Assembly: GCA_963969345.1 (NCBI GenBank)
Contig: OZ017770.1
Location: 5,589,246 to 5,653,245, forward strand
DNA: 64,000 nt
Source: Turbatrix aceti
Lineage: Eukaryota; Nematoda; Chromadorea; Rhabditida; Panagrolaimidae
Direction: 5' to 3'
The first letter of the stretch is position 1. Each line of letters opens with the position of its first letter. Below the pieces are notes generated by a model that saw nothing but the letters and a program-made list of their open reading frames with translations, did not search any database and was not told the DNA's origin. The position numbers and the translations under genes are program-made. This document shows, piece by piece, positions 3,386-57,582 of this stretch.

Positions 3386-5843
3386 CTACTTGCCGCTGAG
3401 ATCCTGGTTGCCAGTAAAGTCATCATCCTCGGCCTCGTAGTAATCATCTTCATCGCAGTCGTCTTCGTATTCCTCCTGGTAGTCAGATTCATCAGGAGGA
3501 AGATCACTGCCGCCGTAAATGACCTGGGAAATCTGGGCATTCTCGTCGTAGATCACGTAGTTGCAGGCAACAGAAGTTTCGCTGACAGAGAGCAAATCAT
3601 TCTCGTCGAGAGGCTCCAAAGTAGTCGGTTCTTCTTCGTCAGAATATTCGCGCTCCACAGTGGAGCCTGCGTTGTTAACCTGGATAGGTTTGTAGGCGGC
3701 GATGGAAGCCTGAGTCAGCGAGGGAGCAAGGATGCGGGCAATCTCATTCTAAAAAACCCATAAAGTGAATCCGCGCAAACACAAACCGCCAACTCACGTC
3801 GTCAGTTTCTCCAGTGATGCCACGCCAGTTACGGAAAGCCAGCCGAAATTTGTCATCGGCGTCTTTTCCAGCATTGTTAGTTTCAAGCGGGATTTCAGGA
3901 GTGAAGAGGGTAGGAAGCCGGCTAGGAACAGGGTCCGGGGCTGGCGGAACGTCGCTGAGGTCAGGGATGTAGACGGTACCCGGCGGGCAAATGCCGAAAT
4001 ACTGGTGAAGCGGCCAACCAGCAGTCAGTGGATTGTTAGTGCGCAGAGCCAAAAGAGAATCCTCGCGCACCAGCGGGCTGGAAAAGTGAGCTGCAAGCGC
4101 CTCTCTGTTCTCAGCAAACCTTCCATTCGTCAGACGAAACATCGCGTTACTGAAAAAAAAAAAACAAAATCATAATAAAACCCAAAAAAACACATAAAAA
4201 CAACATACGTGCTTTTGAGATCAGCAATAAGTTGTCGGGCCGCGCCGACGTAGTCATTCAATTCTTTGCCGCTCAGTTTGAAGGCCATCTCCTGGCGTAT
4301 GGCCATGGTGTAACCCACGGGATCGGCGATACGACTCAGACGAAGCAGAACGGGCGAAACGTTAGTAGTCCAGTTTTTTGAGGTCTCCATGTAGTCCATG
4401 TGTTCGACGAAAAGAGTTTCGACGTACTGGCGATCGTGAGGGTCCAGCAGAGAGCCGGATTCAAGAATGCTGTGAATGAACGCCAGACGCTCGACGGCTT
4501 CGTATTCGCAGACATTAGAGTTCAGATGAACAATATCCTGCAAAGCACGGACCATATCGTGGTCCTCGTTGGTCTCGTCGATAAAGTACTTGAAAATTTC
4601 TTCGTAGGCGGAGAGGCCTTGCATAGGGTCTTCGAAAAGAGACTCAAACGGAACATCGCCCATCGTGGTCAGTTTGTACTTGGGGAAAGAGTGGCTAGCC
4701 GTGATCTGAGAAAACGGGTTGGTTCGGATAGCAGCCGTGTACAGGAAAATCTGCAAAAACGAATGCGAGATAAACAGTTTGTTATCACGAACAAAAAACG
4801 TACCAGAATGTCGAAAAAGTTGTAGCGCTCAATATTTGGGCCGCGACGGATGCCGATGATTTTGCGGAGGCTGTCCCCTGAAACATTCGCGCGTAATCAG
4901 CTTAACAACTTTCAAAAACTCACAATTGGCAAATCCACTGTGTCCGATCAAGAAAAGCATCGTAGAAAACGCTTTGGGGTGCTCGAAAACTTTGACTCCG
5001 TTGGCGTGCCAATGCATGACGCAGTCCACGAAAACGCTAACGCTCGGCATGAGAAGCGGAAAGGACTGGAAGATGGAAGCGATGTCGGGAAGCATGTATT
5101 TGCCGATGAACGAGTTGCTGAGTGATTCCGGATCCTTGGCGTACCAGATCTTTTGAGCAATCATAGTACCACCCTAAAAAAACCAAAATCAATCGTTTTC
5201 ATAAAAAAACCCGCAAGAAACTCACATCTCCGGTAGTAGACAGGGTAGCGCAGCGATCGGCGTTCGCGCGGTTGTCAAGATACGTCTTGGCAATAATGTA
5301 GTGGACAAAGGAGGAGAACAAAGCTTCAATGCCGGCCCGATTGATATAAATGTTGCGCAGGTGCTTGCTGGTGGCGAGGCAGCACAAAGCAACGGAATCG
5401 AGGTTCGAGATATCGTAGACAGGAGGAGTTTCCTTGGAGTAGATCACTTTGGCAGCAAAAGAGCACAGCATACCGCAACCAAGCTTGTAGACCTCGGTAT
5501 CTTTCAGCGAAGCGAAGGATGCCGGAATGTCACGGTGTCGGCCATAGTTTACGAAATACACAATATTGTCAAGACTCCAGATGGATGCTTGAATGGCAGC
5601 CGACGTAGGAACAATATACGGATTCTTGAAGCGCAGAATTTCCTTGACACGTGCAATTAGGAGCGCAACATGGGGAGCAATTGGCTGGTTAGGGAAACGA
5701 TTATCGTAGAATTTGACGTACTTCTGGTAGTCAACCAAAGAATCGTCGAGAATATTGTTGTTGACGATACTAGCGAGCTTAGCCTCGTCATCAAAAACGC
5801 TCACGGTGGGATGAGGATCCCGAACGGGTGGCACGTCTGACAT
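3386..5843 (-). CDS. Unknown protein, 732 residues, acidic C-terminal tail
   Basis: Six exons (minus strand): 5226-5843, 4924-5173, 4804-4877, 4209-4750, 3798-4149 and 3386-3748, 732 residues. All donors are GTGAGT, GTACGT or GTATGT and all acceptors end in AG. I start at the ATG at 5841-5843 (MSDVPPV); an in-frame ATG ten codons upstream is also possible. I do not recognise the family. The first ~550 residues look helical and soluble, with no signal peptide or clear membrane segment. A proline-rich linker follows (DVPPAPDPVPSRLP). The last ~60 residues are very acidic (runs such as EEYEDDCDEDDYYEAEDDD). A partial duplicate lies at 12542-14392; the two are nearly identical over the central exons, so the duplication is fairly recent or has been homogenised. 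The duplicate lacks the proline-rich and acidic parts. Confidence 0.85.
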
Positions 5844-7362: not shown

Positions 7363-8614
7363 TTAGAGAAGAGGTCGAATTTTGCCAAAGGTGAACGTTC
7401 CGACACGGTACACACCATAAAGAACGGCACCGCCGACAGTCAGGCGAACGGCAACTTTGAACACCTTAGCCGCAGTCGAAGGTTCAGGGATGGTCATCAG
7501 CTCCGCGACATCGATATCGAAGTTCTCCCAATTCTTGACGATTCCGGGAACATGGCCCATGCCGACGACAGCCACGATGTTCACCGGTTGGTAGGGAACT
7601 GAAAAAAACATGCTGTCAGTTTATTTTTTTCTCTAAAATTCTTGACTTACTTCCGTCAGTAGCGGAGACAATCATCTTCTCCATAGTAATGTTAGCGACC
7701 AACTTGTGCAGGACGTCGGTCATGTAGAGATCGCGCTCGTCAATGAAGATCTTGGCGAGGAGCGGGAAGTCACCAGCCATCTCGAGCAGGATTTCGCCCA
7801 GAAGATCGCGTTCCTTGACGCGTTCCACATCTTCGGCACTAAAAATACGATGAGATGTTTAATAAAAAATTGAGCAAGGCAGCTTACGTGATCTTGGTGT
7901 CAATGGACAAGAACAAGTGATACAGAAATCGGAGACGCTGGAAGAAAGAAAGCGACCTGAGAGCGCGTTTGATCGTGACCGAAAAAGGGCGACCGCCGAA
8001 GCAGAGACGAGAGCAAGGAGGCATGCCCAGCTCCTTCGCGATATGCTCCGGGGTAAGCAGCGACTGAAGCAAGCCCTGAGCAAATCCGAGCTCTTTGAAA
8101 AGTGAAAAGATTCGACCCTGGCTGAAATCCTGAGCATCACGCATCCAGACTTCTTCGTTGATTTCGAGGACGTTCATGCGCTGAGGGCAGAGCTCGATGA
8201 ACACCATGTCCGGCTGAGTAGCCTTGATAGTGTGGAGAACATCCTGCTGGCTGGCGCGGCTGAAGTGGGCAGTGCCGATGAGGTAGACCTTCGTCGCGGC
8301 GAACTGCGCTCTGAACACATCGGCATCAATGATTTCCAGCTGCTCAGCACATCCAGATCCCGTTTCCTTGATCGGGTTGCTCAGGACAGTGACTAAAATT
8401 ATAATAATTAGCGAAACGTTTGAAAAAGTATGCAAAACGCACCGACGTCCTCGGGGAACACCGCCGTTTCGTCGCGGGTGCGGTTGAAGGCGAACTTTCC
8501 ATTTCGCGCGTGCTGAAACAACCCAGATGCATATAAAAACAACAAGAATCATAAAAAAAACTTACAATAACACCTCCGTCAAAAGCATCAAAGTCCACAT
8601 TTTCGTTGGGATCC
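7363..8614 (-). CDS. TraB-domain protein (TRABD type), 3' part of a composite gene
   Basis: Exons (minus): 8566-8614, 8443-8512, 7888-8392, 7651-7838 and 7363-7598. The product carries VYLIGTAHFS, then VFIELCPQR, a central helical part (KRALRSLSFFQRLRF, DLLGEILLEMAGDFP, IDERDLYMTDVLHKL), then VVGMGHVPGIVKNW and a hydrophobic C-terminal stretch. Two GxxH motifs (GTAH, GMGH) and the Glu of ELC are the hallmark of the TraB/PrgY/Tiki clan. Vertebrate TRABD is linked to the mitochondrial outer membrane, which fits the C-terminal hydrophobic segment. The segment between the LGMPP and FGGRPF motifs looks shorter than I recall for vertebrate TRABD. Upstream, exon 8566-8614 is entered in frame from the mini-exon array; I see no separate first exon. 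An internal start at MSAPVDDD in the last array exon (8713-8798) is possible. Confidence 0.88.
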
Positions 8615-11600
8615 CTGCAAAGACGTCATCGAATACAATAAGCACAAAGCGAGGTCAATCGCCAAAGCCAAAAGGGACGAATCGGCAAAGACAGCATGCA
8701 AAACAAACTCACATTTCATCGCGATTCTCCTGATCGGGAAGGATATCATCATCAACCGGAGCAGACATCTGCTCAGTGGTCGAAGCAATGATTTCTCGCT
8801 GAAAAAGCCATGATGTACATCAAATCAACGAGATACACAAAAAACTTACACCACTCTCATTGTCAACAACGTCACCGGCGATTTGGTTGCTTGCTTGCCT
8901 ATAAAAGCGCCACCGAATACAATAAGCACAAAGCGAGGTCAATCGCCAAAGCCAAAAGGGACGAATCGGCAAAGACAGCATGCAAAACAAACTCACATTT
9001 CATCGCGATTCTCCTGATCGGGAAGGATATCATCATCAACCGGAGCAGACATCTGCTCAGTGGTCGAAGCAATGATTTCTCGCTGAAAAAGCCATGATGT
9101 ACATCAAATCAACGAGATACACAAAAAACTTACACCACTCTCATTGTCAACAACGTCACCGGCGATTTGGTTGCTTGCTTGCCTATAAAAGCGCCACCGA
9201 ATACAATAAGCACAAAGCGAGGTCAATCGCCAAAGCCAAAAGGGACGAATCGGCAAAGACAGCATGCAAAACAAACTCACATTTCATCGCGATTCTCCTG
9301 ATCGGGAAGGATATCATCATCAACCGGAGCAGACATCTGCTCAGTGGTCGAAGCAATGATTTCTCGCTGAAAAAGCCATGATGTACATCAAATCAACGAG
9401 ATACACAAAAAACTTACACCGCTCTCATTGTCAACAACGTCACCGGCGATTTGGTTGCTTGCTTGCCTATAAAAGCGCCACCGAATACAATAAGCACAAA
9501 GCGAGGTCAATCGCCAAAGCCAAAAGGGACGAATCGGCAAAGACAGCATGCAAAACAAACTCACATTTCATCGCGATTCTCCTGATCGGGAAGGATATCA
9601 TCATCAACCGGAGCAGACATCTGCTCAGTGGTCGAAGCAATGATTTCTCGCTGAAAAAGCCATGATGTACATCAAATCAACGAGATACACAAAAAACTTA
9701 CACCGCTCTCATTGTCAACAACGTCACCGGCGATTTGGTTGCTTGCTTGCCTATAAAAGCGCCACCGAATACAATAAGAACAAAGCGAGGTCAATCGCCA
9801 AAGCCAAAAGGGACGAATCGGCAAAGACAGCATGCAAAACAAACTCACATTTCATCGCGATTCTCCTGATCGGGAAGGATATCATCATCAACCGGAGCAG
9901 ACATCTGCTCAGTGGTCGAAGCAATGATTTCTCGCTGAAAAAGCCATGATGTACATCAAATCAACGAGATACACAAAAAACTTACACCACTCTCATTGTC
10001 AACAACGTCACCGGCGATTTGGTTGCTTGCTTGCCTATAAAAGCGCCACCGAATACAATAAGCACAAAGCGAGGTCAATCGCCAAAGCCAAAAGGGACGA
10101 ATCGGCAAAGACAGCATGCAAAACAAACTCACATTTCATCGCGATTCTCCTGATCGGGAAGGATATCATCATCAACCGGAGCAGACATCTGCTCAGTGGT
10201 CGAAGCAATGATTTCTCGCTGAAAAAGCCATGATGTACATCAAATCAACGAGATACACAAAAAACTTACACGGCTCTCATTGTCAACAACGCCACCGGCG
10301 ATTTGGTTGCTTGCTTGCCTATAAAAGCGCCACCGAATACAATAAGCACAAAGCGAGGTCAATCGCCAAAGCCAAAAGGGACGAATCGGCAAAGACAGCA
10401 TGCAAAACAAACTCACATTTCATCGCGATTCTCCTGATCGGGAAGGATATCATCATCAACCGGAGCAGACATCTGCTCAGTGGTCGAAGCAATGATTTCT
10501 CGCTGAAAAAGCCATGATGTACATCAAATCAACGAGATACACAAAAAACTTACACCACTCTCATTGTCAACAACGTCACCGGCGATTTGGTTGCTTGCTT
10601 GCCTATAAAAGCGCCACCGAATACAATAAGCACAAAGCGAGGTCAATCGCCAAAGCCAAAAGGGACGAATCGGCAAAGACAGCATGCAAAACAAACTCAC
10701 ATTTCATCGCGATTCTCCTGATCGGGAAGGATATCATCATCAACCGGAGCAGACATCTGCTCAGTGGTCGAAGCAATGATTTCTCGCTGAAAAAGCCATG
10801 ATGTACATCAAATCAACGAGATACACAAAAAACTTACACCGCTCTCATTGTCAACAACGTCACCGGCGATTTGGTTGCTTGCTTGCCTATAAAAGCGCCA
10901 CCGAATACAATAAGAACAAAGCGAGGTCAATCGCCAAAGCCAAAAGGGACGAATCGGCAAAGACAGCATGCAAAACAAACTCACATTTCATCGCGATTCT
11001 CCTGATCGGGAAGGATATCATCATCAACCGGAGCAGACATCTGCTCAGTGGTCGAAGCAATGATTTCTCGCTGAAAAAGCCATGATGTACATCAAATCAA
11101 CGAGATACACAAAAAACTTACACGGCTCTCATTGTCAACAACGCCACCGGCGATTTGGTTGCTTGCTTGCCTATAAAAGCGCCACCGAATACAATAAGCA
11201 CAAAGCGAGGTCAATCGCCAAAGCCAAAAGGGACGAATCGGCAAAGACAGCATGCAAAACAAACTCACATTTCATCGCGATTCTCCTGATCGGGAAGGAT
11301 ATCATCATCAACCGGAGCAGACATCTGCTCAGTGGTCGAAGCAATGATTTCTCGCTGAAAAAGCCATGATGTACATCAAATCAACGAGATACACAAAAAA
11401 CTTACACCACTCTCATTGTCAACAACGTCACCGGCGATTTGGTTGCTTGCTTGCCTATAAAAGCGCCACCGAATACAATAAGCACAAAGCGAGGTCAATC
11501 GCCAAAGCCAAAAGGGACGAATCGGCAAAGACAGCATGCAAAACAAACTCACATTTCATCGCGATTCTCCTGATCGGGAAGGATATCATCATCAACCGGA

Positions 11601-12597
11601 GCAGACATCTGCTCAGTGGTCGAAGCAATGATTTCTCGCTGAAAAAGCCATGATGTACATCAAATCAACGAGATACACAAAAAACTTACACCACTCTCAT
11701 TGTCAACAACGTCACCGGCGATTTGGTTGCTTGCTTGCCTATAAAAGCGCCACCGAATACAATAAGCACAAAGCGAGGTCAATCGCCAAAGCCAAAAGGG
11801 ACGAATCGGCAAAGACAGCATGCAAAACAAACTCACATTTCATCGCGATTCTCCTGATCGGGAAGGATATCATCATCAACCGGAGCAGACATCTGCTCAG
11901 TGGTCGAAGCAATGATTTCTCGCTGAAAAAGCCATGATGTACATCAAATCAACGAGATACACAAAAAACTTACACGGCTCTCATTGTCAACAACGCCACC
12001 GGCGATTTGGTTGCTTGCTTGCCTATAAAAGCGCCACCGAATACAATAAGCACAAAGCGAGGTCAATCGCCAAAGCCAAAAGGGACGAATCGGCAAAGAC
12101 AGCATGCAAAACAAACTCACATTTCATCGCGATTCTCCTGATCGGGAAGGATATCATCATCAACCGGAGCAGACATCTGCTCAGTGGTCGAAGCAATGAT
12201 TTCTCGCTGAAAAAGCCATGATGTACATCAAATCAACGAGATACACAAAAAACTTACACCACTCTCATTGTCAACAACGTCACCGGCGATTTGGTTGCTT
12301 GCTTGCCTATAAAAGCGCCACCGAATACAATAAGCACAAAGCGAGGTCAATCGCCAAAGCCAAAAGGGACGAATCGGCAAAGACAGCATGCAAAACAAAC
12401 TCACATTTCATCGCGATTCTCCTGATCGGGAAGGATATCATCATCAACCGGAGCAGACATCTGCTCAGTGGTCGAAGCAATGATTTCTCGCTGAAAAAGC
12501 CATGATGTACATCAAATCAACGAGATACACAAAAAACTTACACCACTCTCATTGTCAACAACGTCACCGGCGATTTGGTTGCTTGCTTGCCTATCAA
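8615..12597 (-). repeat. Fourteen-fold 284-bp tandem array of two mini-exons
   Basis: A unit of exactly 284 bp repeats with a few base differences. Read on the minus strand, each unit has exon A (49 nt, 8850-8898 plus multiples of 284) after an acceptor ending TTTATAG and before donor GTAAGT. Exon B follows (86 nt, 8713-8798 plus multiples of 284) after TTTTTCAG and before GTGAGT. Introns are 51 bp (A to B) and 98 bp (B to next A). A plus B is 135 nt, and the phases close perfectly, so each unit adds 45 residues: QASNQIAGDVVDNESG, then REIIASTTEQMSAPVDD, then DILPDQENRDEM. The product is acidic and probably disordered. There are 14 B exons and 14 A exons; the last A (12542-12590) is fused to the neighbouring duplicated gene. 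Three A exons carry linked D-to-G and G-to-R changes. Confidence 0.9.
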
Positions 12598-14392
12598 AGC
12601 AAATGCCGAAATACTGGTGAAGCGGCCAACCAGCAGTCAGTGGATTGTTAGTGCGCAGAGCCAAAAGAGAATCCTCGCGCACCAGCGGGCTGGAAAAATG
12701 GGCTGCAAGCGCCTCTCTGCCCTCGGCAAATCTTTCATTCATCAGGCGAAACATCGCATTACTGAAAAAAACTAACAAAATCATAATAAAACCCAAAAAA
12801 ACATACGTGCTATTGAGATTGACAATAACTTGCCGGGCTTCGCCGACGTAGTCATTCAATTCCTTGTAGGCCATCTCCTGGCGTATGGCCATGGTGTAAC
12901 CCACGGGATCGGCGGTACGACTCAGACGAAGCAGAACGGGCGAAACGTTAGTAGTCCAGTTCTTGGAGGTCTCCATGTAGTCCATGTGTTCGACGAAAAG
13001 AGTTTCGACGTACTGGCGATCGTGAGGGTCCAGCAGAGAGCCGGATTCAAGAATGCTGTGAATGAACGCCAGACGCTCGACGGCTTCGTATTCGCAGACA
13101 TTAGAGTTCAGATGAACAATATCCTGCAAAGCACGGACCATATCGTGGTCCTCGTTGGTCTCGTCGATGAAGTACTTGAAAATTTCTTCGTAGGCGGAGA
13201 GGCCTTGCATAGGGTCTTCGAAAAGAGACTCAAACGGAACATCGCCCATCGTGGTCAGTTTGTACTTGGGGAAAGAGTGGCTGGCCGTGATCTGAGAAAA
13301 CGGGTTGGTTCGGATAGCAGCCGTGTACAGGAAAATCTGCAAAAACGAATGCGAGATAAACAGTTTGTTTTCACGAACAAAAAAAACGTACCAGAATGTC
13401 GAAAAAGTTGTAGCGCTCAATATTTGGGCCGCGACGGATGCCGATGATTTTGCGGAGGCTGTCCCCTGAAACATTCGCGCGTAATCAGCTTAACAACTTT
13501 CAAAAACTCACAATTGGCAAATCCACTGTGTCCGATCAAGAAAAGCATCGTAGAAAACGCTTTGGGGTGCTCGAAAACTTTGACTCCGTTGGCGTGCCAA
13601 TGCATGACGCAGTCCACGAAAACGCTAACGCTCGGCATGAGAAGCGGAAAGGACTGGAAGATGGAAGCGATGTCGGGAAGCATGTATTTGCCGATGAACG
13701 AGTTGCTGAGTGATTCCGGATCCTTGGCGTACCAGATCTTTTGAGCAATCATAGTACCACCCTAAAAAAACCAAAATCAATCGTTTTCATAAAAAAACCC
13801 GCAAGAAACTCACATCTCCGGTAGTAGACAGGGTAGCGCAGCGATCGGCGTTCGCGTGGTTGTCAAGATACGTCTTGGCAATAATGTAGTGGACAAAGGA
13901 GGAGAACAAAGCTTCAATGCCGGCCCGATTGTGATAAATGTTGCGCAGGTGCTTGCTGGTGGCGAGGCAGCACAAAGCAACGGCATCGAGGTTCGAGATA
14001 TCGTAGACAGGAGGAGCTTCTTTGGAGTAGATCACTTTGGCTGCAAAAGAGCACAGCATACCGCAACAAAGCTTGTAGACCTCGGTATCCTTCAGCGAAG
14101 CGAAGGACTTCGGATTGGTACGGTCTTTGTCGTTGTTGATGAGATACCCATATTTGTCAAGCATCCAGATAGATTCCTGAATGGCAGCCGACCTTGGAAC
14201 AATATACAGATTCTCGAAGCGTAGAACTTCCTTGACACGAGCAATTAGGAGCGCAACATGGGGAGCAACTGGCTGATTAGGGAAACGATTGTCGTAGATT
14301 TTGACATACTTCTGGTAGTCAACCAAAGAATCGTCGAGAATATTGTTGTTGGCGATACTAACAAGCTTAGACTCGTCATCAAAAACGCTCAT
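12542..14392 (-). CDS. Partial duplicate of the unknown gene, fused in frame to the array
   Basis: Exons (minus): 13814-14392, 13512-13761, 13392-13465, 12807-13336 and 12542-12761, homologous to the first five exons of the gene at 3386-5843. Relative to that gene it has an in-frame 12-nt deletion (AFKLSG becomes AY). It has lost the original start; a change at the residue corresponding to V in TVSVFDD gives a new ATG (MSVFDDESKL). Homology stops after HQYFGIC. The exon then reads FDR and goes directly into QASNQIAGDVV of array exon A with no frame change, ending at the array's normal GTAAGT donor. With the array and TraB exons this gives one 37-exon, 4542-nt reading frame (1513 residues). 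Alternatively it is a truncated pseudogene read by chance in frame, but the exact phase match argues against that. Confidence 0.8.
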
Positions 14393-43369: not shown

Positions 43370-45133
43370 ATATTTTCCAGTCGAGAAAAAAATGGCGTAA
43401 TTTTTTCACCGTCATTGCCAGCAGGAACTCTTCACAATGTCAGCATGCTGTTGTTTCAGAAGTTCCGACACTGAACCAAGTATTCAGTGTCAGAGCTGAA
43501 CATGAGCATACACGTCCAATCTTGGAACTCTGGCACAAAAAAAGGAGAATTTGAAATGTGCAAATCAGAATCAAAGGTTTACAAGGGAATCCGAGGTACA
43601 CATCGTCGAAAAACAAATATCACCGAAAAAAACGAAGGTTATGACAAATGTTGTCCTGAATGCCCGAAAACTCGGGAAAACCAACAAAGAAACGCAAAAT
43701 TTTGGGTAGGGTGAACGAGTAGGTCAGATCGGGTACCCACCAACACTGGCAATCAGACTTTCGCAATGGCTAGATGCATAGGACTGACAATACATGAAAC
43801 AAAAGCAAGGAAAGGATAAATGCACCAGAGAGCGAGCGGAGCAGAGCAAACCGGAAGAAAAGGGAGTCAAATGAAAAAGCGTAATGAGCGCTCAAAAACT
43901 TTCGGAACGAATTTCCAGTCGAGATATTTTACTGTTAGTTGCAACGAGAGCCCGTATGAGCGCAAAGTCAACGTTGCTGTTTTTTTTTGTTTTGGATTTA
44001 CGTTCTTGTTATTTTATTTAGAGAACTATTGCGGTTACCGTGTGATAGTGGTGATTAACGTCCCTCCAAAAGGTTTTTAGTGTCGGAACTGAAAATGAGC
44101 ATAAATACAGATTTCGGAGACTTGGCATAAAAAAAGAGACAGAATCGAAGGTATACAACTGAATGCGAGATACAAATCGTCGAAAAACAAATATCACTAA
44201 TGAAAATAAAGGTCATCAACCTGAATGCCCAAAAAATGGGGGAAACCGACAGAAAAACGCGAATTTCGGGTAGGGTGAACGAGTATGAGTACTCTCCAAC
44301 ACTGGCAATCAGACTTTCGTAATGCCCGATGTACTGGCACAAAGCAACAGCAATAAAAGGAAAAAAATCACGAAAGTGAGCGGAGCAGGCATTTTGTTCA
44401 TGCAAAGCACGGAGCGGAGCAAACCGGAAGAAAAGGAAGTCAAATGAAAAACGCAATGAGCGCTCAAAAACTTTTGGAACGAATTTCCAGTCGAGACTCT
44501 TTATACCGTCAGTTGCACCGGGTATCTATGAATTTCGGGTATCTTCGAAGCATTATTGCGTTTTTACTCCGTTGCGTTTACATTTTGCAAAACAGCAGTA
44601 TCGGCGATCACACCGCGGTCGCGAGACGTGCGAACTTACCTTTTAGGCTTTACTGTCTCTTCATCGCCAATGCGGAGAGCATTTGGACTCGTTCTGACGC
44701 CCGAAAAACAACAAGTAGCATCCGCGGCTGTCGCTTGAGACGCGGCCAAGTGCGAGCATACCTTACAGTGCTAATGCGACACATCATGCAAGGATGTGTC
44801 TTGCTTTATCATGCAAACTATACTTTGCTACCCGAATATCGCCCGGCATTTCTCACAGTGGTTTTATAATTCTTTCAAATATATTTTTTTCGCGCATCTT
44901 TACTTTGGCACGTGTTCAGGGCTTCTGCTTAGGCTAAATTCAACATAAATTCTGTTTTTTGCTTGAATCCAAACCTTGGAATGTCTTCGTAACCAAAACA
45001 GTACAATCGTACGATTTCCTCTCTGAGCAGCAATCATTTACTCAAAATTCCAAAACTAGTAACAAAATAATAACACAATAATCCAAAACCGCCAAATTCA
45101 TCAGAGATCGTGTTGTCATCCAGTGCAGCCTCG
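43370..45133. repeat. Non-coding half of the unit with nested ~550-bp subrepeats
   Basis: Within each unit, similar blocks recur with a spacing of about 530-575 bp. Landmarks are TTTCCAGTCGAGA (about 43373, 43913, 44488), AATGAGCGCTCAAAAACTTT (two copies), CGTCGAAAAACAAATATCAC, and AACACTGGCAATCAGACTTTCG. A 9-bp hairpin GACACTGAA/TTCAGTGTC lies at 43467-43491. The AACACTGG ends recall the foldback family at 42331 and 60377, so old insertions may have built this part. Plus-strand open frames here look fortuitous. The same layout recurs in the other three units. Confidence 0.6.
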
Positions 45134-46563
45134 CTAATGGGATTCCTCGCCGCGATTCTTCATGGCAACTGAAACCAGCAGTAAAAATTATATTTAACGC
45201 GGACAACGTCAAAAAACAAACCGTAGTCGCGTAGAGCCGAGAGCACGGACACGACGGGCCACTGAAGAACTTTGTGGGCATTGCTGACGCCACCGGGACA
45301 TTTGGCTTCAAAGCCAAGAGCGTTGACGTGGTAGATGAAGGCACCTTGATCCTCGAGACCCGGCAAAGCGATGGAAAAGTCACCACCAGAGCTTGAAAAG
45401 GAAAACAAAGAGTCGCACAAGTTTCAAACAGACTTACAGGTCTTTCATTTCAAGCAGGAAATCTAGAAGCTGACACTCTCTCTCCCGGCAAATCGGGCAC
45501 AGGTGCATGGTGAGTGCCGTATCGAGGTGCAGGAAACGATTATCCGGTTTCGGGATCAGATCGCGAATGATCTCGCTCTCGTCTGAAATCGTGAGAACAT
45601 GAACGAAAAACGCGTTGCTCAACTTGCCTGGCTGCGTGTTTGGAAAATCGTCCTCATCAGAGGACAAATAGATGGGGTTTTCCGCGGCGCCCGTCACACC
45701 AAGCAGGATTTCACGGTCCGGAGACGGCGACCCCGACTGATTTCTGAAAAGGCATGTTACGTCGAGAAAGGCAAAAAATGGTACTCACCGAGCGCGGAGG
45801 AACTCGTTAGTCTCTTCCTGGAAGTTCGGGGCGTCTGCGAGAACAACCGCAAAAGCCGCCCGAATGGCTTTTGCGTTGGTCGGTAAGAGCGGCCAGAGCA
45901 TATGGAGAGCAGCATCCTCGTAAGCCTCCCTTTCGGTGCGACCCACTCCGGGAATGGTGAGCGAGAAAGGAGCCAGCTTCATTTTAAGGTAACAATTGAA
46001 GCCCGCCTGAAAAGTCAATCGCGTATTTTCTCTCTTTGATAAAAAAATAACTCACAAAACTTCCACGTTCCACCGTGACGTACTCATGGGATACGACAAC
46101 GTTCTGCATTTCGACAAATTTGTTGAATACATCAACGTAAACAGACGGCATGATTCTGAAAAGACATGTTACGTCGAGAAAGGCAGAAAATGGTACTCAC
46201 AGAGCGCGGAGGAACTCGTTAGTCTCTTCCTGGGAGTTCGGAGCGTCTGCGAGAACAACCGCAAAAGCCGCCCGAATGGCCTTTTCGTTGGTTGGTAAGA
46301 GCTGCCAGAGCATATGGAGAGCAGCATCCTCGTAAGCCTCCCCTGCGGAGCGACCCACTCCGGAAACGGTGAGCGAGGAAGAAGCCAGCGTCATTTTAAA
46401 GTAACAATTAAAGCCCGCCTGAAAAGTCAATCGCGTATTTTCTCTCTTTGATAAAAAAATAACTCACAAAACTTCCATGTTCCACCGTGACGAACTCATG
46501 GGATACGACAACGTTGTGCATTTCGACAATTTGGTTGAATACTTCAACGTAAACAGACGGCAT
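45134..46563 (-). CDS. Duplicated-dsRBD protein with CPIC motif, array copy 1
   Basis: Exons (minus): 46468-46563, 46201-46418, 46056-46155, 45789-46006, 45438-45743, 45222-45391 and 45134-45168, 380 residues. Exons 1-2 form a dsRNA-binding domain (VFNQIVEMHNVVVSHEF, FNCYFKMTLASSSLTVSG, GEAYEDAALHMLWQLL). Exons 3-4 are a second, nearly identical one joined in frame; the introns inside the two are also alike, so an exon pair plus intron was duplicated. Exon 5 has ENPIYLSSDEDD, a SUMO-interaction-like motif, and HLCPICREREC (about 293-301), perhaps metal-binding. Exon 6 (170 nt) is a degenerate dsRBD-like segment (FIYHVNALGFEAKCPGG, VSNAHKVLQW). If the last intron is retained, the protein instead ends at 45160 (389 residues). 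The TTTTTTCAG acceptor at about 46606 precedes the 5' untranslated region. A dsRNA-binding role is inferred from the domains; no ortholog is assigned. Confidence 0.8.
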
Positions 46564-48806
46564 GATTATGACGGAGCCTTTCGGTAGGACCACACAACGA
46601 CGAACTGAAAAAATAAAGTAGCAGCTGCTTGGAACAACGGGGAACACAATGAGCACAACTCTGTTCCCCGTTGCTTCGCGCATTCAGACCTTGGACGAAC
46701 AAACACAAATTTAGTCCTATGAGTATTCTTTTAACCGTCAAACGCCCTCTAGTAACGAGTTGGTGAACCACATTCACCTGTCCGTTAACAAAGGTGTTCG
46801 CGTGCATGTATCAGAAAGCAGAAACGGGCGCAATAGGCTTATGGACTGCAGCAAAAGGGAGATTGGACTAGGGCGTTTGTGATCTGGAGCGCATAGCATT
46901 TAAGCGGGCAAAAAACTTGAATGGAACGAGAGAGGGACTAGCGCGTGCCATAGATGGAGAAGCAATAGCAGCGGATCAAGAAATTATCGCATCAAGAATA
47001 AAAAAAAAATATTTTCCAGTCGAGCGGATCAAGAAAAAAAAAATATTTTCCAGTCGAGAAAAAAATGGCGTAATTTTTTCACCGTCATTGCCAGCAGGAA
47101 CTCTTCACAATGTCAGCATGCTGTTGTTTCAGAAGTTCCGACACTGAACCAAGTATTCAGTGTCAGAGCTGAACATGAGCATACACGTCCAATCTTGGAA
47201 CTCTGGCACAAAAAAAGGAGAATTTGAAATGTGCAAATCAGAATCAAAGGTTTACAAGGGAATCCGAGGTACACATCGTCGAAAAACAAATATCACCGAA
47301 AAAAACGAAGGTTATGACAAATGTTGTCCTGAATGCCCGAAAACTCGGGAAAACCAACAAAGAAACGCAAAATTTTGGGTAGGGTGAACGAGTAGGTCAG
47401 ATCGGGTACCCACCAACACTGGCAATCAGACTTTCGCAATGGCTAGATGCATAGGACTGACAATACATGAAACAAAAGCAAGGAAAGGATAAATGCACCA
47501 GAGAGCGAGCGGAGCAGAGCAAACCGGAAGAAAAGGGAGTCAAATGAAAAAGCGTAATGAGCGCTCAAAAACTTTCGGAACGAATTTCCAGTCGAGATAT
47601 TTTACTGTTAGTTGCAACGAGAGCCCGTATGAGCGCAAAGTCAACGTTGCTGTTTTTTTTTGTTTTGGATTTACGTTCTTGTTATTTTATTTAGAGAACT
47701 ATTGCGGTTACCGTGTGATAGTGGTGATTAACGTCCCTCCAAAAGGTTTTTAGTGTCGGAACTGAAAATGAGCATAAATACAGATTTCGGAGACTTGGCA
47801 TAAAAAAAGAGACAGAATCGAAGGTATACAACTGAATGCGAGATACAAATCGTCGAAAAACAAATATCACTAATGAAAATAAAGGTCATCAACCTGAATG
47901 CCCAAAAAATGGGGGAAACCGACAGAAAAACGCGAATTTCGGGTAGGGTGAACGAGTATGAGTACTCTCCAACACTGGCAATCAGACTTTCGTAATGCCC
48001 GATGTACTGGCACAAAGCAACAGCAATAAAAGGAAAAAAATCACGAAAGTGAGCGGAGCAGGCATTTTGTTCATGCAAAGCACGGAGCGGAGCAAACCGG
48101 AAGAAAAGGAAGTCAAATGAAAAACGCAATGAGCGCTCAAAAACTTTTGGAACGAATTTCCAGTCGAGACTCTTTATACCGTCAGTTGCACCGGGTATCT
48201 ATGAATTTCGGGTATCTTCGAAGCATTATTGCGTTTTTACTCCGTTGCGTTTACATTTTGCAAAACAGCAGTATCGGCGATCACACCGCGGTCGCGAGAC
48301 GTGCGAACTTACCTTTTAGGCTTTACTGTCTCTTCATCGCCAATGCGGAGAGCATTTGGACTCGTTCTGACGCCCGAAAAACAACAAGTAGCATCCGCGG
48401 CTGTCGCTTGAGACGCGGCCAAGTGCGAGCATACCTTACAGTGCTAATGCGACACATCATGCAACGATGTGTCTTGCTTTATCATGCAAACTATACTTTG
48501 CTACCCGAATATCGCCCGGCATTTCTCACAGTGGTTTTATAATTCTTTCAAATATATTTTTTTCGCGCATCTTTACTTTGGCACGTGTTCAGGGCTTCTG
48601 CTTAGGCTAAATTCAACATAAATTCTGTTTTTTGCTTGAATCCAAACCTTGGAATGTCTTCGTAACCAAAACAGTACAATCGTACGATTTCCTCTCTGAG
48701 CAGCAATCATTTACTCAAAATTCCAAAACTAGTAACAAAATAATAACACAATAATCCAAAACCGCCAAATTCATCAGAGATCGTGTTGTCATCCAGTGCA
48801 GCCTCG

Positions 48807-50236
48807 CTAATGGGATTCCTCGCCGCGATTCTTCATGGCAACTGAAACCAGCAGTAAAAATTATATTTAACGCGGACAACGTCAAAAAACAAACCGTAGT
48901 CGCGTAGAGCCGAGAGCACGGACACGACGGGCCACTGAAGAACTTTGTGGGCATTGCTGACGCCACCGGGACATTTGGCTTCAAAGCCAAGAGCGTTGAC
49001 GTGGTAGATGAAGGCACCTTGATCCTCGAGACCCGGCAAAGCGATGGAAAAGTCACCACCAGAGCTTGAAAAGGAAAACAAAGAGTCGCACAAGTTTCAA
49101 ACAGACTTACAGGTCTTTCATTTCAAGCAGGAAATCTAGAAGCTGACACTCTCTCTCCCGGCAAATCGGGCACAGGTGCATGGTGAGTGCCGTATCGAGG
49201 TGCAGGAAACGATTATCCGGTTTCGGGATCAGATCGCGAATGATCTCGCTCTCGTCTGAAATCGTGAGAACATGAACGAAAAACGCGTTGCTCAACTTGC
49301 CTGGCTGCGTGTTTGGAAAATCGTCCTCATCAGAGGACAAATAGATGGGGTTTTCCGCGGCGCCCGTCACACCAAGCAGGATTTCACGGTCCGGAGACGG
49401 CGACCCCGACTGATTTCTGAAAAGGCATGTTACGTCGAGAAAGGCAAAAAATGGTACTCACCGAGCGCGGAGGAACTCGTTAGTCTCTTCCTGGAAGTTC
49501 GGGGCGTCTGCGAGAACAACCGCAAAAGCCGCCCGAATGGCTTTTGCGTTGGTCGGTAAGAGCGGCCAGAGCATATGGAGAGCAGCATCCTCGTAAGCCT
49601 CCCTTTCGGTGCGACCCACTCCGGGAATGGTGAGCGAGAAAGGAGCCAGCTTCATTTTAAGGTAACAATTGAAGCCCGCCTGAAAAGTCAATCGCGTATT
49701 TTCTCTCTTTGATAAAAAAATAACTCACAAAACTTCCACGTTCCACCGTGACGTACTCATGGGATACGACAACGTTCTGCATTTCGACAAATTTGTTGAA
49801 TACATCAACGTAAACAGACGGCATGATTCTGAAAAGACATGTTACGTCGAGAAAGGCAGAAAATGGTACTCACAGAGCGCGGAGGAACTCGTTAGTCTCT
49901 TCCTGGGAGTTCGGAGCGTCTGCGAGAACAACCGCAAAAGCCGCCCGAATGGCCTTTTCGTTGGTTGGTAAGAGCTGCCAGAGCATATGGAGAGCAGCAT
50001 CCTCGTAAGCCTCCCCTGCGGAGCGACCCACTCCGGAAACGGTGAGCGAGGAAGAAGCCAGCGTCATTTTAAAGTAACAATTAAAGCCCGCCTGAAAAGT
50101 CAATCGCGTATTTTCTCTCTTTGATAAAAAAATAACTCACAAAACTTCCATGTTCCACCGTGACGAACTCATGGGATACGACAACGTTGTGCATTTCGAC
50201 AATTTGGTTGAATACTTCAACGTAAACAGACGGCAT
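48807..50236 (-). CDS. Duplicated-dsRBD protein with CPIC motif, array copy 2
   Basis: Same gene as at 45134-46563, shifted by exactly 3673 bp, with the same seven exons. I saw no coding difference from copy 1; the change noticed in this unit (GCAACG instead of GCAAGG near 48465) is outside the gene. Confidence 0.8.
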
Positions 50237-52479
50237 GATTATGACGGAGCCTTTCGGTAGGACCACACAACGACGAACTGAAAAAATAAAGTAGCAGCTG
50301 CTTGGAACAACGGGGAACACAATGAGCACAACTCTGTTCCCCGTTGCTTCGCGCATTCAGACCTTGGACGAACAAACACAAATTTAGTCCTATGAGTATT
50401 CTTTTAACCGTCAAACGCCCTCTAGTAACGAGTTGGTGAACCACATTCACCTGTCCGTTAACAAAGGTGTTCGCGTGCATGTATCAGAAAGCAGAAACGG
50501 GCGCAATAGGCTTATGGACTGCAGCAAAAGGGAGATTGGACTAGGGCGTTTGTGATCTGGAGCGCATAGCATTTAAGCGGGCAAAAAACTTGAATGGAAC
50601 GAGAGAGGGACTAGCGCGTGCCATAGATGGAGAAGCAATAGCAGCGGATCAAGAAATTATCGCATCAAGAATAAAAAAAAAATATTTTCCAGTCGAGCGG
50701 ATCAAGAAAAAAAAAATATTTTCCAGTCGAGAAAAAAATGGCGTAATTTTTTCACCGTCATTGCCAGCAGGAACTCTTCACAATGTCAGCATGCTGTTGT
50801 TTCAGAAGTTCCGACACTGAACCAAGTATTCAGTGTCAGAGCTGAACATGAGCATACACGTCCAATCTTGGAACTCTGGCACAAAAAAAGGAGAATTTGA
50901 AATGTGCAAATCAGAATCAAAGGTTTACAAGGGAATCCGAGGTACACATCGTCGAAAAACAAATATCACCGAAAAAAACGAAGGTTATGACAAATGTTGT
51001 CCTGAATGCCCGAAAACTCGGGAAAACCAACAAAGAAACGCAAAATTTTGGGTAGGGTGAACGAGTAGGTCAGATCGGGTACCCACCAACACTGGCAATC
51101 AGACTTTCGCAATGGCTAGATGCATAGGACTGACAATACATGAAACAAAAGCAAGGAAAGGATAAATGCACCAGAGAGCGAGCGGAGCAGAGCAAACCGG
51201 AAGAAAAGGGAGTCAAATGAAAAAGCGTAATGAGCGCTCAAAAACTTTCGGAACGAATTTCCAGTCGAGATATTTTACTGTTAGTTGCAACGAGAGCCCG
51301 TATGAGCGCAAAGTCAACGTTGCTGTTTTTTTTTGTTTTGGATTTACGTTCTTGTTATTTTATTTAGAGAACTATTGCGGTTACCGTGTGATAGTGGTGA
51401 TTAACGTCCCTCCAAAAGGTTTTTAGTGTCGGAACTGAAAATGAGCATAAATACAGATTTCGGAGACTTGGCATAAAAAAAGAGACAGAATCGAAGGTAT
51501 ACAACTGAATGCGAGATACAAATCGTCGAAAAACAAATATCACTAATGAAAATAAAGGTCATCAACCTGAATGCCCAAAAAATGGGGGAAACCGACAGAA
51601 AAACGCGAATTTCGGGTAGGGTGAACGAGTATGAGTACTCTCCAACACTGGCAATCAGACTTTCGTAATGCCCGATGTACTGGCACAAAGCAACAGCAAT
51701 AAAAGGAAAAAAATCACGAAAGTGAGCGGAGCAGGCATTTTGTTCATGCAAAGCACGGAGCGGAGCAAACCGGAAGAAAAGGAAGTCAAATGAAAAACGC
51801 AATGAGCGCTCAAAAACTTTTGGAACGAATTTCCAGTCGAGACTCTTTATACCGTCAGTTGCACCGGGTATCTATGAATTTCGGGTATCTTCGAAGCATT
51901 ATTGCGTTTTTACTCCGTTGCGTTTACATTTTGCAAAACAGCAGTATCGGCGATCACACCGCGGTCGCGAGACGTGCGAACTTACCTTTTAGGCTTTACT
52001 GTCTCTTCATCGCCAATGCGGAGAGCATTTGGACTCGTTCTGACGCCCGAAAAACAACAAGTAGCATCCGCGGCTGTCGCTTGAGACGCGGCCAAGTGCG
52101 AGCATACCTTACAGTGCTAATGCGACACATCATGCAAGGATGTGTCTTGCTTTATCATGCAAACTATACTTTGCTACCCGAATATCGCCCGGCATTTCTC
52201 ACAGTGGTTTTATAATTCTTTCAAATATATTTTTTTCGCGCATCTTTACTTTGGCACGTGTTCAGGGCTTCTGCTTAGGCTAAATTCAACATAAATTCTG
52301 TTTTTTGCTTGAATCCAAACCTTGGAATGTCTTCGTAACCAAAACAGTACAATCGTACGATTTCCTCTCTGAGCAGCAATCATTTACTCAAAATTCCAAA
52401 ACTAGTAACAAAATAATAACACAATAATCCAAAACCGCCAAATTCATCAGAGATCGTGTTGTCATCCAGTGCAGCCTCG

Positions 52480-53909
52480 CTAATGGGATTCCTCGCCGCG
52501 ATTCTTCATGGCAACTGAAACCAGCAGTAAAAATTATATTTAACGCGGACAACGTCAAAAAACAAACCGTAGTCGCGTAGAGCCGAGAGCACGGACACGA
52601 CGGGCCACTGAAGAACTTTGTGGGCATTGCTGACGCCACCGGGACATTTGGCTTCAAAGCCAAGAGCGTTGACGTGGTAGATGAAGGCACCTTGATCCTC
52701 GAGACCCGGCAAAGCGATGGAAAAGTCACCACCAGAGCTTGAAAAGGAAAACAAAGAGTCGCACAAGTTTCAAACAGACTTACAGGTCTTTCATTTCAAG
52801 CAGGAAATCTAGAAGCTGACACTCTCTCTCCCGGCAAATCGGGCACAGGTGCATGGTGAGTGCCGTATCGAGGTGCAGGAAACGATTATCCGGTTTCGGG
52901 ATCAGATCGCGAATGATCTCGCTCTCGTCTGAAATCGTGAGAACATGAACGAAAAACGCGTTGCTCAACTTGCCTGGCTGCGTGTTTGGAAAATCGTCCT
53001 CATCAGAGGACAAATAGATGGGGTTTTCCGCGGCGCCCGTCACACCAAGCAGGATTTCACGGTCCGGAGACGGCGACCCCGACTGATTTCTGAAAAGGCA
53101 TGTTACGTCGAGAAAGGCAAAAAATGGTACTCACCGAGCGCGGAGGAACTCGTTAGTCTCTTCCTGGAAGTTCGGGGCGTCTGCGAGAACAACCGCAAAA
53201 GCCGCCCGAATGGCTTTTGCGTTGGTCGGTAAGAGCGGCCAGAGCATATGGAGAGCAGCATCCTCGTAAGCCTCCCTTTCGGTGCGACCCACTCCGGGAA
53301 TGGTGAGCGAGAAAGGAGCCAGCTTCATTTTAAGGTAACAATTGAAGCCCGCCTGAAAAGTCAATCGCGTATTTTCTCTCTTTGATAAAAAAATAACTCA
53401 CAAAACTTCCACGTTCCACCGTGACGTACTCATGGGATACGACAACGTTCTGCATTTCGACAAATTTGTTGAATACATCAACGTAAACAGACGGCATGAT
53501 TCTGAAAAGACATGTTACGTCGAGAAAGGCAGAAAATGGTACTCACAGAGCGCGGAGGAACTCGTTAGTCTCTTCCTGGGAGTTCGGAGCGTCTGCGAGA
53601 ACAACCGCAAAAGCCGCCCGAATGGCCTTTTCGTTGGTTGGTAAGAGCTGCCAGAGCATATGGAGAGCAGCATCCTCGTAAGCCTCCCCTGCGGAGCGAC
53701 CCACTCCGGAAACGGTGAGCGAGGAAGAAGCCAGCGTCATTTTAAAGTAACAATTAAAGCCCGCCTGAAAAGTCAATCGCGTATTTTCTCTCTTTGATAA
53801 AAAAATAACTCACAAAACTTCCATGTTCCACCGTGACGAACTCATGGGATACGACAACGTTGTGCATTTCGACAATTTGGTTGAATACTTCAACGTAAAC
53901 AGACGGCAT
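52480..53909 (-). CDS. Duplicated-dsRBD protein with CPIC motif, array copy 3
   Basis: Same gene as copy 1, shifted by 7346 bp, with the same splice sites and stop. No coding difference seen. It is intact, so this is not a decayed copy. Confidence 0.8.
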
Positions 53910-56152
53910 GATTATGACGGAGCCTTTCGGTAGGACCACACAACGACGAACTGAAAAAATAAAGTAGCAGCTGCTTGGAACAACGGGGAACACAATGAGC
54001 ACAACTCTGTTCCCCGTTGCTTCGCGCATTCAGACCTTGGACGAACAAACACAAATTTAGTCCTATGAGTATTCTTTTAACCGTCAAACGCCCTCTAGTA
54101 ACGAGTTGGTGAACCACATTCACCTGTCCGTTAACAAAGGTGTTCGCGTGCATGTATCAGAAAGCAGAAACGGGCGCAATAGGCTTATGGACTGCAGCAA
54201 AAGGGAGATTGGACTAGGGCGTTTGTGATCTGGAGCGCATAGCATTTAAGCGGGCAAAAAACTTGAATGGAACGAGAGAGGGACTAGCGCGTGCCATAGA
54301 TGGAGAAGCAATAGCAGCGGATCAAGAAATTATCGCATCAAGAATAAAAAAAAAATATTTTCCAGTCGAGCGGATCAAGAAAAAAAAAATATTTTCCAGT
54401 CGAGAAAAAAATGGCGTAATTTTTTCACCGTCATTGCCAGCAGGAACTCTTCACAATGTCAGCATGCTGTTGTTTCAGAAGTTCCGACACTGAACCAAGT
54501 ATTCAGTGTCAGAGCTGAACATGAGCATACACGTCCAATCTTGGAACTCTGGCACAAAAAAAGGAGAATTTGAAATGTGCAAATCAGAATCAAAGGTTTA
54601 CAAGGGAATCCGAGGTACACATCGTCGAAAAACAAATATCACCGAAAAAAACGAAGGTTATGACAAATGTTGTCCTGAATGCCCGAAAACTCGGGAAAAC
54701 CAACAAAGAAACGCAAAATTTTGGGTAGGGTGAACGAGTAGGTCAGATCGGGTACCCACCAACACTGGCAATCAGACTTTCGCAATGGCTAGATGCATAG
54801 GACTGACAATACATGAAACAAAAGCAAGGAAAGGATAAATGCACCAGAGAGCGAGCGGAGCAGAGCAAACCGGAAGAAAAGGGAGTCAAATGAAAAAGCG
54901 TAATGAGCGCTCAAAAACTTTCGGAACGAATTTCCAGTCGAGATATTTTACTGTTAGTTGCAACGAGAGCCCGTATGAGCGCAAAGTCAACGTTGCTGTT
55001 TTTTTTTGTTTTGGATTTACGTTCTTGTTATTTTATTTAGAGAACTATTGCGGTTACCGTGTGATAGTGGTGACTAACGTCCCTCCAAAAGGTTTTTAGT
55101 GTCGGAACTGAAAATGAGCATAAATACAGATTTCGGAGACTTGGCATAAAAAAAGAGACAGAATCGAAGGTATACAACTGAATGCGAGATACAAATCGTC
55201 GAAAAACAAATATCACTAATGAAAATAAAGGTCATCAACCTGAATGCCCAAAAAATGGGGGAAACCGACAGAAAAACGCGAATTTCGGGTAGGGTGAACG
55301 AGTATGAGTACTCTCCAACACTGGCAATCAGACTTTCGTAATGCCCGATGTACTGGCACAAAGCAACAGCAATAAAAGGAAAAAAATCACGAAAGTGAGC
55401 GGAGCAGGCATTTTGTTCATGCAAAGCACGGAGCGGAGCAAACCGGAAGAAAAGGAAGTCAAATGAAAAACGCAATGAGCGCTCAAAAACTTTTGGAACG
55501 AATTTCCAGTCGAGACTCTTTATACCGTCAGTTGCACCGGGTATCTATGAATTTCGGGTATCTTCGAAGCATTATTGCGTTTTTACTCCGTTGCGTTTAC
55601 ATTTTGCAAAACAGCAGTATCGGCGATCACACCGCGGTCGCGAGACGTGCGAACTTACCTTTTAGGCTTTACTGTCTCTTCATCGCCAATGCGGAGAGCA
55701 TTTGGACTCGTTCTGACGGCCGAAAAACAACAAGTAGCATCCGCGGCTGTCGCTTGAGACGCGGCCAAGTGCGAGCATACCTTACAGTGCTAATGCGACA
55801 CATCATGCAAGGATGTGTCTTGCTTTATCATGCAAACTATACTTTGCTACCCGAATATCGCCCGGCATTTCTCACAGTGGTTTTATAATTCTTTCAAATA
55901 TATTTTTTTCGCGCATCTTTACTTTGGCACGTGTTCAGGGCTTCTGCTTAGGCTAAATTCAACATAAATTCTGTTTTTTGCTTGAATCCAAACCTTGGAA
56001 TGTCTTCGTAACCAAAACAGTACAATCGTACGATTTCCTCTCTGAGCAGCAATCATTTACTCAAAATTCCAAAACTAGTAACAAAATAATAACACAATAA
56101 TCCAAAACCGCCAAATTCATCAGAGATCGTGTTGTCATCCAGTGCAGCCTCG

Positions 56153-57582
56153 CTAATGGGATTCCTCGCCGCGATTCTTCATGGCAACTGAAACCAGCAG
56201 TAAAAATTATATTTAACGCGGACAACGTCAAAAAACAAACCGTAGTCGCGTAGAGCCGAGAGCACGGACACGACGGGCCACTGAAGAACTTTGTGGGCAT
56301 TGCTGACGCCACCGGGACATTTGGCTTCAAAGCCAAGAGCGTTGACGTGGTAGATGAAGGCACCTTGATCCTCGAGACCCGGCAAAGCGATGGAAAAGTC
56401 ACCACCAGAGCTTGAAAAGGAAAACAAAGAGTCGCACAAGTTTCAAACAGACTTACAGGTCTTTCATTTCAAGCAGGAAATCTAGAAGCTGACACTCTCT
56501 CTCCCGGCAAATCGGGCACAGGTGCATGGTGAGTGCCGTATCGAGGTGCAGGAAACGATTATCCGGTTTCGGGATCAGATCGCGAATGATCTCGCTCTCG
56601 TCTGAAATCGTGAGAACATGAACGAAAAACGCGTTGCTCAACTTGCCTGGCTGCGTGTTTGGAAAATCGTCCTCATCAGAGGACAAATAGATGGGGTTTT
56701 CCGCGGCGCCCGTCACACCAAGCAGGATTTCACGGTCCGGAGACGGCGACCCCGACTGATTTCTGAAAAGGCATGTTACGTCGAGAAAGGCAAAAAATGG
56801 TACTCACCGAGCGCGGAGGAACTCGTTAGTCTCTTCCTGGAAGTTCGGGGCGTCTGCGAGAACAACCGCAAAAGCCGCCCGAATGGCTTTTGCGTTGGTC
56901 GGTAAGAGCGGCCAGAGCATATGGAGAGCAGCATCCTCGTAAGCCTCCCTTTCGGTGCGACCCACTCCGGGAATGGTGAGCGAGAAAGGAGCCAGCTTCA
57001 TTTTAAGGTAACAATTGAAGCCCGCCTGAAAAGTCAATCGCGTATTTTCTCTCTTTGATAAAAAAATAACTCACAAAACTTCCACGTTCCACCGTGACGT
57101 ACTCATGGGATACGACAACGTTCTGCATTTCGACAAATTTGTTGAATACATCAACGTAAACAGACGGCATGATTCTGAAAAGACATGTTACGTCGAGAAA
57201 GGCAGAAAATGGTACTCACAGAGCGCGGAGGAACTCGTTAGTCTCTTCCTGGGAGTTCGGAGCGTCTGCGAGAACAACCGCAAAAGCCGCCCGAATGGCC
57301 TTTTCGTTGGTTGGTAAGAGCTGCCAGAGCATATGGAGAGCAGCATCCTCGTAAGCCTCCCCTGCGGAGCGACCCACTCCGGAAACGGTGAGCGAGGAAG
57401 AAGCCAGCGTCATTTTAAAGTAACAATTAAAGCCCGCCTGAAAAGTCAATCGCGTATTTTCTCTCTTTGATAAAAAAATAACTCACAAAACTTCCATGTT
57501 CCACCGTGACGAACTCATGGGATACGACAACGTTGTGCATTTCGACAATTTGGTTGAATACTTCAACGTAAACAGACGGCAT
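56153..57582 (-). CDS. Duplicated-dsRBD protein with CPIC motif, array copy 4
   Basis: Same gene as copy 1, shifted by 11019 bp, intact. Upstream DNA is shared with the others to about 58010, after which the sequence is unique, so only this copy has a different distal 5' environment and may be regulated differently. Two base changes in the unit (near 55073 and 55718) are in the non-coding half. Confidence 0.8.

Follow-up and report, generated by a model that had tools for sequence, protein, structure and literature searches.

A tandem array of paired mini-exons within a predicted fusion gene of the nematode Turbatrix aceti

How does a gene come to carry the same pair of very short exons many times over, and does the length of its product change through splicing or through the DNA? 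These questions are raised by a locus of Turbatrix aceti, which we studied within a stretch of 64,000 nucleotides (64 kb), hereafter the window. We note that the gene models are predictions made from genomic DNA. The reading that we prefer, and hold to be somewhat better than an even bet, is that of a fusion gene, composed of parts of an orphan gene and a TraB-domain gene, with a linker that grows by DNA copy number.

Structure and coding potential of the array

The array runs along the minus strand from window position 12590 to 8615 and consists of 14 head-to-tail units of 284 bp each (14 x 284 bp). Tandem Repeats Finder gave a period of 284 with 14.0 copies at 8630-12600 (99% matches, 0% indels), and anchor counts recovered exon A and exon B 14 times each, with copies of exon A always spaced by 284 bp. 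In order, a unit comprises exon A (49 nt), intron 1 (51 nt), exon B (86 nt), and intron 2 (98 nt), and both introns are of the GT..AG type. The two exons sum to 135 nt, or 45 codons, which makes the unit frame-neutral. A first-pass annotation had described 14 units of 284 bp with 49- and 86-nt exons, each adding 45 residues without changing the frame, and the repeat finder, anchor spacing, and exon lengths agree with it on these points. Its count of 28 array exons is too high by one: in unit 1, exon A does not stand alone but closes a 220-nt exon at its 3' end, and the free-standing mini-exons number 27. The parts of the array referred to below are as follows:

8615 to 12590, minus strand: array of 14 x 284-bp units (Tandem Repeats Finder, anchor spacing, exon chain)
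12542 to 12590, minus strand: exon A of unit 1, the end of the 220-nt exon at 12761-12542 (exon chain)
12405 to 12490, minus strand: exon B of unit 1, 86 nt (exon chain)
12258 to 12306, minus strand: exon A of unit 2, the first free-standing 49-nt exon (exon chain)
8615 to 8898, minus strand: unit 14, in which intron 2 ends like intron 1 of the TraB parent gene (GATGACGTCTTTGCAG; unit comparison)

Units were nearly identical across the array, in introns as well as exons. Identity was computed on the first 268 positions, with the last 16 nt of each unit omitted because unit 14 there passes into a TraB-type intron end; unit 14 deviates from the other units only at unit positions 269-281 (0-based). 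Over the first 268 positions, pairwise identity ranged from 98.5% to 100% (mean 99.4%), with four variable sites and five haplotypes. Three of these sites are in exon A (Asp>Gly, silent, and Gly>Arg) and one is in intron 2, while exon B and intron 1 have none; the Gly/Arg variant of exon A is carried by units 3, 6, and 9. The introns have been homogenised along with the exons (variable sites 3/135 in exons, 1/133 in introns), and the mean identity of 99.4% supports the earlier claim that introns were amplified together with exons. Exon sites varied no less than intron sites (3/135 versus 1/133, P 0.62), so the uniformity of the array alone is no sign of selection on the repeats. The 59.9-Mb assembly contains at least 14 matches to exon B, and all those listed fall inside the array.

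Codon usage in the array fits coding. The usage table was trained on the two parent genes described below, and the predicted array frame scored +0.47 bits/codon, compared with means of 0.47 and 0.59 for the parent genes (the training set itself) and 0.42 for the first half of the fusion. The two remaining sense frames scored -0.57 and -1.31, and the antisense frames scored -0.73, -0.48, and +0.22, one of them being positive. None of 5000 base shuffles reached the score of the predicted array frame. In that frame, each unit encodes QASNQIAGDVVDNESGREIIASTTEQMSAPVDDDILPDQENRDEM, a peptide of 45 residues of which 12 are acidic and 2 basic. The repeat had already been read as acidic in the first pass, and this is borne out; the peptide also falls on the disordered side of a charge-hydropathy plot.

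The matrix used to score splice sites drew on only 10 introns, all from the two parent genes. Unit donor sites scored within the range of 18 other introns from these genes, and the acceptor of exon B was ordinary. The acceptor of exon A (CTTTTATAG) was the lowest of the 20 introns compared, with 7.9 bits versus 9.3-13.4 for the others. The earlier description of the splice sites as good is thus accurate for three of the four site types but not for the exon A acceptor.

A host gene joined from two nearby genes

In the predicted host gene, the array stands between the first half of an orphan gene and most of a TraB-domain gene, joined in one frame. This origin from two nearby genes had gone unnoticed in the first pass, as had unit introns that point to TraB and a second two-exon duplication in the window. 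We built an exon chain by hand from GT-AG splice sites (14392..7363), and it yields 37 exons and 1513 aa with no internal stop. A search of the assembly with the fusion protein matched the first half a second time at window 3987-5801 and the last half at C6:5547834-5549043; the TraB-domain parent gene (L017) lies ~47 kb from the fusion gene. At the DNA level, the first half is 94% identical to its paralogue over 1839 bp (window 3987-5823), and the TraB half is 93% identical to its parent over 1354 bp. The parental DNA matches stop at 12599 and 8648, which are the two array edges, and the fusion retains the orphan protein through YFGIC and the TraB protein from exon 2 onward. The gene features are as follows:

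7363 to 14392, minus strand: predicted fusion gene of 37 exons and 1513 aa (GT-AG exon chain assembled by hand, free of internal stops)
12600 to 14392, minus strand: orphan-derived first half, ending in ...YFGIC (94% DNA identity to window 3987-5823)
7363 to 8614, minus strand: TraB-derived last half, from TraB exon 2, without the GGEFR block (93% DNA identity to L017; PF01963)
3386 to 5843, minus strand: intact paralogue of the first half, a 732-aa orphan gene with six exons (gene model)

Both parents persist in the assembly. The orphan gene starts 1.5 kb downstream of the end of the fusion gene (window 5843-3386), and the TraB parent is intact and encodes 454 aa. Apart from the fusion copy, our searches recovered no relative of the orphan gene other than a 32-nt DNA match in a decayed relic on another contig. 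No Pfam family exceeded the cut-off in the first 551 aa of the fusion; the best match, RhoGEF, was under the cut-off (E 0.18). The orphan half had no NCBIfam family and no PDB match, and none of 7999 scored database candidates passed at E 0.001. A structure model of orphan exon 1, built from two sequences, was unusable (mean pLDDT 37.7). The C-terminus of the orphan gene is very acidic.

The C-terminal half of the fusion matches PF01963 (57 bits versus a cut-off of 26.8) and retains the GTAHFS motif, likenesses that it shares with the TRABD/TraB (Tiki/TraB) family. It differs from that family in that the GGEFR block is absent and in that the orphan domain and array replace the TraB N-terminus. 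The block was removed by an in-frame deletion, 45 nt in the alignment, and is present in the other 13 of 14 aligned rows, which comprised the fusion, the parent, and 12 database relatives picked from 120 listed. Judged by these motifs, the TraB half is a TraB-derived but atypical member. Its last ~125 residues show one difference from the parent. The parent itself is at most 50% identical to database proteins among the matches listed, with Panagrolaimus superbus as the best named match. For COX1, identity reached 96% with one database protein and at most 87% with named nematodes, among the matches listed. For TRABD in cultured human cells, a C-terminal segment is described as the anchor in the outer mitochondrial membrane (PMC12329661).

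Comparison with the parent genes indicated constraint in the TraB half. Relative to its parent, it has 14.5 silent and 7.5 replacement changes (dN 0.009, dS 0.062, dN/dS 0.15). Introns of this half differ from those of the parent at 10 of 201 aligned sites, and replacement sites changed less often (8/800, P 0.0008). Replacement changes were also fewer than constraint confined to the parent would predict (Poisson P 0.0004). The constraint on this half may have acted before the fusion arose. Between the first half and the orphan gene, there were 29.5 silent and 45.5 replacement changes (dN/dS 0.43). These differences gather at both ends, and the middle ~960 aligned columns hold five mismatches, introns included. 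This near-identical tract, window ~13.92-12.96 kb versus ~5.34-4.38 kb, likely reflects gene conversion between the first half and its paralogue.

Indels relative to the parents differed in length between the reading frame and the introns. All three indels in the fusion reading frame are multiples of three (12, 6, and 45 nt), compared with seven intron indels of 13, 2, 2, 1, 1, 1, and 1 nt (Fisher 5e-6, with six intron events entered). This count excludes an end gap and three further gaps (31, 11, and 1 nt) of the first-half alignment. None of the three further gaps is a multiple of three; they fall in the 5' flank and first 13 codons of the orphan gene, upstream of the fusion start codon and outside the fusion frame. 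Together, we interpret the constraint and indel results as favouring a translated frame that flanks the array on both sides.

These results bear on whether the fusion is instead a decaying duplicate, in which the array would be a neutral minisatellite that happens to span introns. Such decay could be signalled by the loss of GGEFR, a block kept by all 13 other aligned rows, and it would agree with the dN/dS of 0.43 in the first half, with the lack of detectable selection inside the array, and with the decayed state of the related copy on contig C4. However, the fusion extends over 1513 codons without a stop or frameshift, dN/dS in the TraB half is 0.15, and reading-frame indels are all multiples of three, so we regard decay as unlikely.

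Origin of the unit and changes in its number

The introns of the unit resemble those of the TraB gene. Unit intron 1 aligns with TraB intron 2 along its full length, and none of 300 shuffles scored as high, by a narrow margin (49 versus 45 for the best shuffle). For unit intron 2, the alignment with TraB intron 1 covered 93 of 98 nt, again with no shuffle out of 300 as high. These two tests were among 16 comparisons made. Because of these resemblances, the unit probably grew from the TraB gene. Evidence from the exons was mixed. Exon A equals TraB exon 2 in length (49 nt) and end phase (phase 0), and with the two in register 23 of 49 positions match (P 0.0007 when bases were shuffled, 0.05 when codons were). 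Local alignment of the two gave no match (P 0.35), nor did the exon A of the C4 relic match TraB exon 2 (16/49, P 0.13). No convincing source of exon B emerged from comparisons with the relic, the orphan gene, the TraB parent (its exons 1 and 3 included), and the TraB part of the fusion itself (best P 0.017, among several comparisons). The simplest account of the unit is that the region of TraB exon 2 was duplicated internally long ago.

The decayed relic lies at C4:4235257-4235415 and its surroundings (L021, C4:4229000-4238999). A 32-nt piece of the orphan gene (87.5%, E 1.2e-5) is present. The unit-like part has exon A and intron 1, lacks exon B, and continues with intron 2, which carries the unit acceptor, and the start of a further exon A; pieces of TraB lie farther along. 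Intron 1 of the relic is closer to TraB intron 2 (92.5% over 40 nt) than is intron 1 of the array. We infer that an orphan-unit-TraB construct predates the present uniform array. We also considered that the CTTTTATAG acceptor was newly made from coding sequence by a duplication at the orphan/array junction. We dropped this in favour of an inherited, diverged TraB acceptor, which is simpler since unit intron 2 aligns with TraB intron 1 and since the relic has the same acceptor. The relic is seemingly interrupted by repeated sequence.

The first-pass annotation had proposed that the array makes a protein of variable length by splicing. That proposal is unsupported, since loss of either exon alone breaks the frame. 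Skipping one exon B (86 nt) leads to a stop in the next exon A, and skipping one exon A (49 nt) leads to an open basic frame with a stop after 42 codons of TraB sequence. Because neither 49 nor 86 nt is a multiple of three, only paired skips of A and B stay in frame. The second, Lys/Arg-rich frame that follows one exon A skip is open through the consensus unit, which could arise by chance at 45 codons per unit.

A splicing device, in which cells would choose the number of units so that one gene gives a family of protein lengths, nevertheless has points in its favour. Units are frame-neutral and their splice sites are equal across the array, such that any B donor could be joined in frame to a later A acceptor, and the exon A acceptor is weak. 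In schistosomes, SmPoMuc transcripts are described as varying in repeat number past the genomic count (PMC2576457). The frame-breaking effect of single-exon skips argues against such a device, as do the short introns (45-98 nt), which would favour the joining of neighbours, and we consider it quite doubtful. Copy number more likely changes in DNA than by splicing: as the unit is frame-neutral, gaining or losing a whole unit in the DNA changes the protein length by 45 residues while the frame is preserved.

The locus could also hold two transcription units, with the orphan half ending in or before the array and the TraB half separate, for example driven from a promoter that the array contains. 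In favour of this, each parent is a gene of its own, and the TraB half could be constrained without being fused. However, one frame links both halves across every splice junction, and the TraB half contains no copy of the first exon and start codon of the parent, which makes this arrangement very unlikely. An assembly artefact that falsely expanded the unit number or falsely joined the flanks might be suspected from the second high-identity array in the same window, but it is the least credible reading, given that unit variants occur in mixed order, the flanks share one reading frame through the array, the relic on another contig carries the same unit junction, and assemblers collapse such arrays more often than they expand them.

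Under the preferred reading, that of a fusion gene with a linker that grows by DNA copy number, the array would have arisen through duplication inside the TraB part, and its uniformity would be maintained by unequal exchange or gene conversion. Its length would shift at the DNA level in steps of 45 codons. Normally every exon would be included, giving an acidic, probably disordered spacer of ~630 aa between the orphan domain and the TraB domain. A TRABD-like C-terminus could be seated on the outer mitochondrial membrane, and by this analogy the orphan domain would hang off mitochondria via a long acidic tether; we infer both the membrane location and the disorder of the product. Since a conserved block is lost, the TraB half is more likely an anchor or scaffold than an enzyme.

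Comparison with known arrays and other features of the window

Repeated exons are known from several kinds of gene. Dscam-type mutually exclusive exon arrays consist of diverged alternative exons, one of which is chosen. The present array is of another kind, with exon B identical in 14 of 14 units and only three variable sites in exon A.

The array more closely resembles KIV-2 of human LPA, a tandem unit described as having two exons (160 and 182 nt) and two introns (4 kb and 1.2 kb), a length of 5.5 kb, and 1 to >40 copies, and as encoding a kringle, with documented copy-number polymorphism (PMC4378929). In both cases head-to-tail units contain whole exons and introns within one gene, here a predicted one, and by their lengths each exon alone would break the frame while the pair would not. 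The unit differs in being 284 bp rather than 5.5 kb, in encoding an acidic, probably disordered sequence rather than a kringle, and in belonging to a fusion gene. LPA copy number is polymorphic among people, whereas the T. aceti array is known from one assembly.

Alternation of intron types has been described in spider silk. In some Argiope MaSp2 genes, the repeat unit is reported to have two exons and two alternating homogenised intron types, and the authors write that they were unaware of another eukaryotic gene with an alternating intron pattern (PMC9779670). The present array follows this plan; the Argiope genes differ from it in that they encode poly-alanine silk proteins. On its predicted structure, the present array alternates two homogenised intron types outside silk; so, arguably, does LPA. 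SmPoMuc of Schistosoma mansoni is described as having a 27-bp exon amplified with introns, one per ~1-kb unit, and transcripts that exceed the genomic repeat count, which the authors ascribe to trans-splicing (PMC2576457). There the unit has one exon and transcripts were studied, whereas the present array has two exons per unit and is known from DNA alone.

With LPA KIV-2, spider silk, and schistosome mucins already described, tandem amplified exon-intron units are known, and the array opens no new class. In a literal-word search of the open-access literature, no nematode case of such an array was evident among the titles listed. It is a clean, small (284-bp) two-exon/two-intron coding array, as predicted, outside silks and vertebrates. 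Its main interest is a well-preserved history. Since the genome still contains the two donor genes, the probable source of the introns, and a relative in decay, the steps of fusion, internal duplication, amplification, and homogenisation can be approached from one assembly. The locus also offers practical tests of whether long linkers grow by DNA copy number and whether splicing stays faithful when 27 mini-exons are almost interchangeable.

A second high-identity array in the window contains its own two-exon duplication:

43370 to 58010, no strand assigned: second array, a 3673-bp unit x 3.99, each with a 412-bp two-exon unit twice (Tandem Repeats Finder, splice motifs)

Copies of the 3673-bp unit differ by 4 mismatches in 10,968 compared positions, and the 412-bp units within it have 93% matches. 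As read from splice motifs in one of four copies of the 3673-bp unit, the 412-bp unit pairs exons of 100 and 218 nt (together 318 nt, or 106 codons) with introns of 49 and 45 nt. Taken singly, the two exon lengths are not divisible by three, and the opening exon of the first copy makes up the end of a 137-nt exon. The first exon of the first copy is therefore buried in a longer exon in both the 284-bp and the 412-bp cases. Translated exons of the 3673-bp array gave no Pfam family over the cut-off.

It is conceivable, if rather improbable, that this compact genome has a recurrent route to protein lengthening, seen in two genes of the window (284 bp x 14 and 412 bp x 2). Such a route would begin with a tandem duplication that starts inside an exon and reaches the acceptor of the second exon after it; the duplication would be retained only if the exon pair is frame-neutral, and would then be amplified and homogenised. 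The larger array would have grown at the fusion seam, giving an adjustable linker between proteins not joined before.

Rfam gave no match at gathering scores in the 64-kb window. A 24-bp tandem repeat of 11.9 copies (80% matches) occupies window 58970-59255, and three listed open frames, taken from both strands, cover it.
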